Made by a program: the position numbers and the translations under genes
Shown: positions 58,718 to 60,985 of the stretch, piece after piece
Numbering within the stretch: the stretch's first letter is position 1
Layout of the letters: every line of letters begins with the position of its first letter
Notes under the pieces: model-generated
The model's database searches: none
Told to the model about the DNA's origin: nothing
Seen by the model: the letters and a program-made list of their open reading frames with translations, nothing else
Assembly: GCF_021531595.1 (NCBI RefSeq)
Contig: NZ_JADYUD010000003.1
Coordinates: 1-64,000, forward strand
DNA from: Fusobacterium perfoetens
GTDB taxonomy: Bacteria; Fusobacteriota; Fusobacteriia; Fusobacteriales; Fusobacteriaceae
Reading direction: 5' to 3'
Length of the DNA: 64,000 nucleotides

Positions 58718-59260
58718 ATGACTATCTACGATTTTAAAGTAAAAGATTCAAAAGGAAATGAAGTTTTAATGTCAGATTATAAAGATAAAGTTCTTCTTAT
58801 TGTAAATACAGCTACAGGATGTGGATTTACTCCACAATATGATGGACTTGAAGCTCTGTATGAAAAATATAAAGACATGGGATTTGAAATTTTAGATTTT
58901 CCATGTAACCAATTTTTAAACCAAGCTCCAGGAACAAATGAAGAAATAATTCAGTTCTGTCAGCTTAAATTTGGAACTAAATTTAAAACTTTCAGTAAAA
59001 TAAAAGTAAATGGAAAAGATGCAGAACCTTTATACACATTTTTAAAAGAAAAAGCTCAGGAAGAAATTAAAAATGAAAAAACTACTTCTTTTAAAGAAAA
59101 ACTTGAAAAATTAGGACATGCTATAATGGGAAAAGAAATTAAATGGAATTTTACAAAATTCCTTGTTGATAAAAACGGAAATGTAGTAAAAAGATATTCT
59201 CCTACAGTTACTCCTGAGGAAATAGCTCCTAAAATTGAAGAACTTTTAGCTGAAAAATAA
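58718..59260 (+). CDS. Glutathione peroxidase family protein
   Basis: 180 residues. The active-site segment NTATGCGFTPQYDGLE carries the catalytic Cys, FPCNQFLNQAPG the Gln and KWNFTKFLVDK the Trp. It is a cysteine-type, probably thioredoxin-dependent, peroxidase in the cytoplasm. AAGGAGTG precedes the ATG. Confidence 0.93.
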   Translation: MTIYDFKVKDSKGNEVLMSDYKDKVLLIVNTATGCGFTPQYDGLEALYEKYKDMGFEILDFPCNQFLNQAPGTNEEIIQFCQLKFGTKFKTFSKIKVNGKDAEPLYTFLKEKAQEEIKNEKTTSFKEKLEKLGHAIMGKEIKWNFTKFLVDKNGNVVKRYSPTVTPEEIAPKIEELLAEK

Positions 59261-59267
59261 AATTTAT

Positions 59268-59294
59268 TTGACATTTTAACTAAAATGTTATAAC
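59268..59294 (+). promoter_or_regulatory. Promoter of the asnA leader
   Basis: TTGACA (59,268-59,273), 15-base spacer, TATAAC (59,289-59,294). The predicted start near 59,300 leaves the leader peptide in the transcript. Confidence 0.6.
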
Positions 59295-59327
59295 CTATAA
59301 ACATGAAATTATTCTGGAGGAAAAAAA

Positions 59328-59396
59328 ATGAAAGTTATTATTGCATCAATCATAAATAATAATAATGGCAATCTAAAGGGGTTTGAACTCATATAA
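59328..59396 (+). CDS. Asn-rich leader peptide of asnA
   Basis: 22 residues; residues 9-15 read INNNNGN, four consecutive AAT codons, a GGC and a fifth AAT. The ribosome site CTGGAGG is 8 bases before the ATG. It sits 149 bases before the asparagine synthetase gene, followed by hairpins and a terminator. The codon content matches the product of the operon, the hallmark of ribosome-mediated attenuation. No homologous leader is known to me. Confidence 0.65.
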   Translation: MKVIIASIINNNNGNLKGFELI

Positions 59397-59445
59397 TTCA
59401 AATGAGGGCAAATCCATTTTGACATGTTAATTATGATTTATGCCC
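59382..59445 (+). promoter_or_regulatory. Alternative RNA hairpins of the asnA attenuator
   Basis: TTTGAA (59,382-59,387) pairs with TTCAAA (59,397-59,402), overlapping the leader stop; CTCAT with ATGAG (59,402-59,406) excludes it. GGGCAAATC (59,406-59,414) pairs with GATTTATGCCC (59,435-59,445). Ribosome position on the Asn codons would decide which forms. Confidence 0.5.
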
Positions 59446-59470
59446 TTTCTCCAATAACAAAGTATAATTG

Positions 59471-59503
59471 AAGTCATCTGGGTATAAATCAGATGACTTT
59501 TTT
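59471..59503 (+). terminator. Attenuator terminator before asnA
   Basis: AAGTCATCTG and CAGATGACTT arms, 9-base loop, then TTTTTT. It lies between the leader peptide and the asnA start, so read-through is needed for expression. Confidence 0.85.
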
Positions 59504-59544
59504 AATTTCAGAATATAAAAAATTATTTATAAAGAGGTGGAATT

Positions 59545-60552
59545 ATGGAAGATGTATTAGTACCAGAAGGATATGAAAACAAATTAAGCCTTCTTGAAAC
59601 AGAGGTAAGTATTAAAAAAGTAAAGGATTTCTTTGAAAGAGCACTATCTTATGAATTAAATCTAACAAGAGTTTCTGCTCCGTTATTTGTAAGAGAAGAT
59701 TCAGGTCTTAACGACAACTTAAGTGGTTATGAAAAACCAGTATCTTTTACAACTAAACTTGAAGATGGAAATTATCACATTGTCCATTCTCTTGCTAAAT
59801 GGAAAAGAATGGCTCTTTACAAATATCAGTTCCCTATGCATACAGGGCTTTATACAGATATGAATGCTATAAGAAGAGAGGAAGATCTTTCAAATATCCA
59901 CTCTCTTTATGTTGACCAATGGGACTGGGAACTTATTATAAAAAAAGAAGAAAGAACTACTAAAACTTTACAACATATTGTAAGAAATATTTTCAGAGCT
60001 TTCAAAAAAACAGAAGAATATATTTTAAGAGAATATCCTCAACTTTCTAAAAAACTTCCTGAAGAAATTACTTTCATTACTTCTCAGGAACTTGAAGACA
60101 GATATCCTAATCTTACTCCAAAAGAAAGAGAACATGCAATAGCAAAAGAATATAAAGCTGTATTTATTTCTCAGATTGGAAAAACTTTAAACTCAGGAGA
60201 AAAACATGATGGAAGAGCTCCTGACTATGATGACTGGGAACTAAATGGAGATATTTTATTCTGGTATCCTCCTTTAAACAGATCTGTTGAACTTTCTTCA
60301 ATGGGAATAAGAGTAAGTGAAGAAAGTCTTGCAAAACAATTAAAACTTGCAAATGCTGAAGAAAGAAAAGAATTTCCTTTCCATAAAGCATTATTAGAAG
60401 GAAAACTTCCATACACAATTGGAGGAGGAATTGGACAATCAAGAATTTGTCTTTTCTTCCTTGATAAAGTTCATATTGGAGAAGTTCAAGCATCTATATG
60501 GCCTAAAGAAATGGTTGAAGCATATGAAAAACATGGAGTTCATTTCTTATAA
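59545..60552 (+). CDS. asnA: Aspartate--ammonia ligase
   Basis: 335 residues, the standard length. SLLETEVSIKKVKDFFERAL, the substrate loop RVSAPLFVREDSGLNDNLSG and the QWDWE segment are the AsnA core of the class II synthetase fold. It makes asparagine from aspartate, ammonia and ATP. Control by the Asn leader is inferred. AGAGGTGG precedes the ATG. Confidence 0.96.
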   Translation: MEDVLVPEGYENKLSLLETEVSIKKVKDFFERALSYELNLTRVSAPLFVREDSGLNDNLSGYEKPVSFTTKLEDGNYHIVHSLAKWKRMALYKYQFPMHTGLYTDMNAIRREEDLSNIHSLYVDQWDWELIIKKEERTTKTLQHIVRNIFRAFKKTEEYILREYPQLSKKLPEEITFITSQELEDRYPNLTPKEREHAIAKEYKAVFISQIGKTLNSGEKHDGRAPDYDDWELNGDILFWYPPLNRSVELSSMGIRVSEESLAKQLKLANAEERKEFPFHKALLEGKLPYTIGGGIGQSRICLFFLDKVHIGEVQASIWPKEMVEAYEKHGVHFL

Positions 60553-60568
60553 AATTAAATTCTAAAAT

Positions 60569-60606
60569 AAAAAGAGAGGGAAATTTATTTCAATTCCTCT
60601 CTTTTT
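60569..60606. terminator. Bidirectional terminator after asnA
   Basis: AAAAAGAGAGG and CCTCTCTTTTT arms with flanking AT; ends asnA and the convergent DUF2023 gene. Confidence 0.85.
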
Positions 60607-60643
60607 ATAATTTATATATTCAGGTATTAATGGAATATTTTAT

Positions 60644-60985
60644 TTATCCAGCTTTTCTTGTAAGATATCTTTTACATTGCTGGTTTGTATTATATCCTAA
60701 AAGAATTCCAAGAATAAAATCTTCCTCAGGAGTAAAATCTTTAAGAGAATTCTTCTTAAATTTTTTTAAAACATCTATAGGCTCTTTTATTCCAAAGAAA
60801 ATATTGATGTATCCAGATTTAAGCTCTTCTATTATACATTCATAACCACATTTTTCAAGCCTGTCTTCTATAAGCTCTCTATTTTCCACAGTAGTTGTTA
60901 AAAGGGCAAGATTTCTTAATCCTTTATTAAGTTCATACAGCATATGGAAAAATACACTTAATTCATTTCTTTTTTCACTGCTCAT
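60644..60985 (-). CDS. DUF2023-family protein
   Basis: 113 residues. EKRNELSVFFHMLYELNKGLRNLALLTT at the start and FILGILLGYNTNQQCKRYL near the end match the DUF2023 family, small proteins regularly next to flavodoxin genes. Function unknown; a partner or regulator of flavodoxin is a guess. It is 3 bases after the flavodoxin gene. Confidence 0.8.
   Translation of the reverse strand: MSSEKRNELSVFFHMLYELNKGLRNLALLTTTVENRELIEDRLEKCGYECIIEELKSGYINIFFGIKEPIDVLKKFKKNSLKDFTPEEDFILGILLGYNTNQQCKRYLTRKAG

Follow-up and report, generated by a model that had tools for sequence, protein, structure and literature searches.

Leader-peptide attenuation is a textbook example of regulation by translation. In the classical leaders (trp, his, leu, thr and pheA), a leader ORF is combined with alternative helices and a terminator, and in the trp layout the control codons lie inside the first RNA segment, which a stalled ribosome masks. 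To our knowledge, each of the known amino-acid leaders has its own RNA. The nearest published items that we found are computed uORF attenuator candidates, namely cysS with Cys codons in Rhodobacterales and aroF with Phe codons in Acholeplasma (PMC8632094). These candidates resemble the leader described here in being leader-peptide attenuators before amino-acid genes, but they occur in other taxa, concern other amino acids and are separate motifs; neither asnA nor asparagine appears in the main text. A preliminary description of the DNA analysed here had proposed a leader peptide rich in Asn codons before asnA, of a kind not known to its author, and we likewise found no published Asn leader or Fusobacteriota attenuator family in the open-licence literature, although earlier predictions elsewhere are possible.

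The leader lies between the end of a glutathione peroxidase gene, at position 59260 of the window (the whole stretch of 64,000 nucleotides that was analysed), and the only copy of asnA in this genome (Table 1). In particular, the 22-codon ORF with five AAT codons, four of them consecutive, that the preliminary description had placed before asnA is present, as are the strong ribosome site, for which relatives have similar sequences, and the downstream asparagine synthetase gene. The proposed promoter needed correction: the TTGACA element stands, but the TATAAC element with its 15-nt spacer does not, as by-eye comparison with relatives, whose promoters read TTGAC(A/T)-17-TAT(C/T)CT (with TATCCT and TATTCT as variants of the −10 box), moves the −10 box two bases downstream. 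The 10-bp terminator stem (AAGTCATCTG/CAGATGACTT) was also recovered; it belongs to the only terminator-like site detected within 59000–60800. The folding energy of the leader RNA is −53.8 kcal/mol (z = −5.6 relative to dinucleotide shuffles).

Table 1. Positions of the asnA leader features in the window, and of further leaders elsewhere in the same genome
Feature	Position	Strand	Basis
Promoter (−35 TTGACA, 17-nt spacer, −10 TAACCT)	−35, 59268–59273; −10, 59291–59296	+	Sequence and by-eye comparison, no experiment
Expected transcription start	~59303	+	Predicted
Shine-Dalgarno GGAGGA	about 59316–59321	+	Sequence; GGAGG-type sites before relatives' leaders
Leader peptide ORF MKVIIASIINNNNGNLKGFELI*, 22 codons	59328–59396 (ATG 59328; stop TAA 59394–59396)	+	Sequence and conservation
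Control codons: AAT x4, GGC, AAT (AAT at codons 10–13 and 15)	59355–59372	+	Sequence
Segment 1, GGGTTTG, within ORF, 15 nt 5' of stop codon	59379–59385	+	Covarying helix 1:2
Segment 2, GAGGGCAAATCC (core CAAATCC)	59404–59415 (core 59409–59415)	+	Partner of 1 or 3
Segment 3, TGATTTATGCCC	59434–59445	+	Partner of 2 or 4
Segment 4, GGGTATAAATCA, 12-bp antiterminator with segment 3	59480–59491	+	Cognate versus non-cognate duplex test
Intrinsic terminator	59471–59503 (arms 59471–59480 and 59490–59499; T-run to 59503)	+	Compensatory changes in relatives
asnA, aspartate-ammonia ligase (asparagine synthetase)	59545–60552	+	TIGR00669, E 3.7e-101, above curated cut-off
His leader before amino-acid-binding protein gene	L194:278-428 (G000:C2:163178-163332)		Window's genome, outside window
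Pro leader MIKKVLLSITLNPMVP* before putP	L293 (G000:C5:141270-141391)		Window's genome, outside window
Trp leader MKINYYAISYWWC* before trpS	L294:1501-1628 (G000:C5:143224-143351)		Window's genome, outside window

In relatives, the regions upstream of asnA keep the Asn codons as well as the alternative hairpins and the terminator, an outcome that favours the preliminary description on the one refuting condition open to sequence analysis. The asnA gene is present in 47 of the 61 family genomes, and by our count 32 of these carry an Asn-rich leader ORF before it, the leader being absent or unreadable in the other 15. It is found in all seven genomes of the window's genus, in six of the twelve g5 genomes (in one of them displaced upstream), in the sole g13 genome, in six genomes of g14 and ten of g3, and in one genome each of g2 and g11. 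No Asn leader was found in the other six g5 genomes, in g4, in g6 or in three others, and one split gene was unreadable; nor was any found at the asnA loci of Leptotrichiaceae that we examined or at the other asnA loci examined, mostly from Bacillota. The Asn runs are of unequal length and use both AAT and AAC codons (291 to 35 over 30 leaders), variation which argues that it is the amino acid, rather than a DNA repeat, that is conserved.

Several individual loci depart from this arrangement. In G018 (C8, locus L203) the Asn leader and its terminator lie ~700 bp 5' of asnA, with extra DNA between, and here the attenuator may no longer act on asnA. In a g14 genome (L125, G055:C38) the Asn-rich ORF is retained, while the downstream RNA segments and the terminator are gone, as if deleted. 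Two genomes of the window's genus, G031 (C16:43334-44338, L112) and G034, contain two copies of asnA each, and every copy has its own Asn leader; one of the G031 copies has a single in-frame TGA in the matched stretch. The g3 group has an Asn-rich leader of a different type (MFINFNNNN...). A long, second type of Asn leader (MFINFNNNNYNC...) precedes asnA at L100, L105, L106, L109, L114–L116, L118, L122, L123 and L126; leaders of this type have a terminator and lack the sequence motifs of the five segments.

In relatives, the leader RNA is organized as a chain of four mutually exclusive helices: 1:2 (GGRTTTG/CAAATCC), 2:3 (GGTACAAATC/GATTTGTACC), 3:4 (GTACCC/GGGTAC; in the window this helix has 12 bp) and the terminator. 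The terminator loop contains segment 4, which also spans the beginning of the terminator 3' arm, and helix 2:3 does not overlap the terminator. Compensatory changes occur at several pairs of the terminator stem and in helix 1:2, and the alternative hairpins and terminator of the preliminary description are therein upheld. RNAalifold returned only 1:2 and the terminator, because the register of 2:3 differs in part of the genus, and a duplex-swap test was therefore used. By permutation (p ≤ 0.004), pairing within genomes exceeded pairing between genomes for helices 1:2, 2:3 and 3:4 and for the terminator. Among 51 non-redundant leaders, the cognate duplex was better than swapped segments in all 5000 permutations both for 2:3 (−15.8 versus −10.1 kcal/mol) and for 3:4 (−10.0 versus −7.1 kcal/mol), whereas cognate 2:4 pairing was not above that of swapped segments. 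The alternative pairings 1:3, 1:4 and 2:4 were all rejected in this way, despite the same relatedness. The permutation tests ignore phylogeny, and the procedure that picked ORFs favoured residue runs, so the certainty is somewhat overstated.

The position of segment 1 relative to the ORF is similarly constrained. In a set of 88 leaders in which the start of segment 1 was allowed to fall anywhere from −45 to +25 nt of the leader stop codon, it fell only between −17 and +7 nt, and the first control codon lies 16–41 nt upstream of segment 1 (21 to 32 nt for the first Asn codon of type A leaders, and 24 nt in the window, too far for a ribosome stalled there to cover the segment). A ribosome at the stop codon, whose reach past it is given as up to 12 nt (PMC4833913), overlaps segment 1 in all 88 leaders. 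In masked folding, the stalled state contained 1:2 plus 3:4 and the stop state contained more 2:3. In particular, 2:3 was higher in the stop state in 42 of the 51 leaders, and 3:4 was higher when the ribosome was stalled in 30, with the reverse in 9.

On the strength of the anatomy, the conservation, the co-evolution of four helices, the placement of segment 1 under the terminating ribosome and the match between codons and gene, all of them computed, we think it very likely that the leader is a ribosome-mediated transcription attenuator that ties asnA expression to charged tRNA-Asn and hence to free asparagine. Attenuation by the ribosome, as proposed in the preliminary description, is supported by the comparative RNA analysis; its wiring is refined here to five segments, with the first masked by the terminating ribosome. 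When asparagine is plentiful, the ribosome would reach the stop codon and mask segment 1; segment 2 would then pair with 3, segment 4 would be left free and the terminator would form. When asparagine is scarce, the ribosome would stall on the first AAT codons, upstream of segment 1, such that 1:2 would form, 3 would pair with 4, and this antiterminator would block the terminator and permit transcription of asnA. It is inferred that the promoter is active, that the ORF is translated, that the ribosome stalls on Asn codons when tRNA-Asn is uncharged, and that the choice of structure is kinetic.

Folding places demands on this model. The terminator usually wins at equilibrium in the full-length RNA, so the choice must be kinetic, and the model needs kinetic trapping. 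In the window, the GGG of segment 2 falls under the footprint of a ribosome on the stop codon, as a result of which 2:3 is weak (2.1 pairs) and 3:4 still high in the partial transcript; in the full-length fold of the window, the polarity of the stall and stop states is correct. The Shine-Dalgarno region (59315–59322) is predicted to be able to pair with about 59447–59454, just 3' of segment 3. Without a ribosome, this pairing lowers 3:4 in the folded window RNA but not in most relatives, and an untranslated leader in the window may, by this modelling, terminate. All seven genomes of the genus have AsnS, and the charging of tRNA-Asn is therefore expected to track free asparagine; because gatB occurs as well, an indirect route to Asn-tRNA is not excluded. 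The leader would raise asnA expression as asparagine falls, a prediction for which there are no transcript, ribosome-profiling or expression data.

The wiring also bears on whether the leader instead works as the trp leader does, with a ribosome stalled in the Asn run masking the first segment and the next two segments forming the antiterminator. The last Asn codon (in the NGN part of the run) is only 9 nt from segment 1, within reach of a ribosome stalled there, yet the outcome would have the wrong sign: segments 2 and 4 compete for 3, so masking segment 1 favours 2:3, frees segment 4 and therefore favours the terminator, and a productive stall must leave segment 1 free. Furthermore, helix 2:3 does not itself overlap the terminator, in 88 of 88 leaders 16 nt or more separate the first control codon from the downstream segment 1, and it is the ribosome at the stop codon that always overlaps segment 1. 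A trp-type arrangement thus appears unlikely to us.

The putative attenuator at asnA does not stand alone. A first covariance model, built from Asn leaders alone and searched against the family genomes, matched leaders with His, Met and mixed aromatic runs before genes for an amino-acid-binding protein, metN/metG and DAHP synthase, respectively. In a second model, built from the matches of the first, 4 of the 7 pairs of helix 1:2 are changed on both sides, with 98% of cells paired, and the overall structure is well above slid and shuffled controls. At E 0.01 or better, the second model matched 51 of the 61 genomes, and in nearly all of 60 matches that we fetched, selected for diversity, the codon run fits the gene behind the leader. 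Thus, a Pro leader precedes putP; His leaders precede hisZ or transport genes; Met leaders precede metN, metG or the genes for O-acetylhomoserine sulfhydrylase, aspartate kinase or homoserine dehydrogenase; Thr leaders precede thrS or asd; Tyr leaders precede tyrS, agcS or a gene for a TrpX-like binding protein; and Trp leaders precede genes for NSS-type transporters or that for DAHP synthase. The training set contained no Pro, Thr, Tyr or pure Trp leaders. A negative control of 79 asnA loci from outside the fusobacteria (445 kb) gave a single weak match (E 0.06). The window's genome has four members of the family, with Asn, His, Pro and Trp runs before asnA, an amino-acid-binding protein gene, putP and trpS, respectively, and in Leptotrichiaceae (L301–L305, L307 and L308) His leaders on the scaffold precede an amino-acid-binding protein gene or a hisZ-like gene. 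The comparisons support the view that the Asn leader belongs to a predicted scaffold family covering at least seven amino-acid specificities.

Two matches deserve separate mention. The match at L238 looks spurious. At L263 (G005:C1:1362550-1362680), an aromatic-rich leader, MSLRNFRAIFWFTYYFKTKVYI*, occurs on the scaffold before a gene without an NCBIfam match, which is possibly an unrecognised aromatic amino-acid transporter.

These matches bear in turn on the idea that asparagine is sensed by other means, through direct binding of RNA or tRNA or through arrest by the nascent peptide, with the Asn-rich ORF being secondary. T-boxes control asnA in many Bacillota, and we detected one at 10 of the 20 loci tested among the other asnA loci, mostly Bacillota. 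At the window's locus, in agreement with the preliminary description, and genome-wide, the T-box covariance model (RF00230) detected none; no Rfam family reached its gathering score in the window, where nothing related was found up to E 10, and searches of phage records gave no match. The peptide tail GFEL/GFGL is conserved across the genus, a point in favour of this idea, but the tail is encoded by segment 1, so its conservation is explained as that of the RNA. Moreover, the amino acid of the run switches with the downstream gene while the scaffold is unchanged, and we therefore give such sensing very little credence. That the leader is a chance triplet repeat in an AT-rich spacer of an AT-rich genome, next to a terminator belonging to the upstream gene that ends at 59260, is excluded by the conserved location of the Asn-rich ORF in 32 of the 47 asnA-bearing genomes, by AAC and other in-frame codons within runs whose reading frame is kept across genera, by related leaders in which His, Pro, Thr, Trp or Met codons suit the gene behind, and by covariation of the terminator and helices.

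Taken with the family to which it belongs, the ribosome-mediated attenuator that we favour at asnA suggests that Fusobacteriota probably sense amino acids in general through one conserved leader-peptide scaffold, which changes of the codon run re-program for Asn, His, Met, Pro, Thr, Tyr or Trp. The scaffold would fill the role that T-boxes have in Bacillota, and its logic would be inverted, with the first segment masked by the terminating ribosome and not by the stalled one. If so, asparagine, and possibly proline and others, would join the amino acids that are read by leader peptides, and amino-acid control would be explained in a phylum about whose regulation little is known. With an RNA that stays the same while the codons change with the gene behind it, such a scaffold would be a natural modular sensor, and its logic could be tested with a few codon changes in a reporter.

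Like the T-box (RF00230), the proposed scaffold would read tRNA charging and control the same kinds of genes, which for T-boxes include asnA in Bacillota; unlike the scaffold, a T-box binds tRNA directly, without translation, and it is undetected in this genome and at this locus. Like the trp, his, leu, thr and pheA leaders of E. coli, the asnA leader has a short ORF with a run of end-product codons, alternative helices and an intrinsic terminator, and leaders of both kinds precede a biosynthetic, transport or aminoacyl-tRNA synthetase gene. It passes the membership tests of a short translatable ORF with a ribosome site and clustered control codons, of an intrinsic terminator placed after the leader ORF and ahead of the structural gene and, by computation, of mutually exclusive conserved helices that tie ribosome position to the terminator. 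The trp-type layout does not apply, as the control codons lie outside segment 1 and a ribosome stalled in the run could reach that segment from the last Asn codon only. The asnA leader is thus, as judged from sequence, a member of the broad class of ribosome-mediated attenuators, yet it fails the trp-type layout. It differs from the classical leaders in matching no Rfam leader family, in sensing asparagine, in having five segments with the control codons 5' of segment 1, in the predicted masking of that segment by the terminating ribosome, and in its use of a single RNA scaffold for several amino acids.
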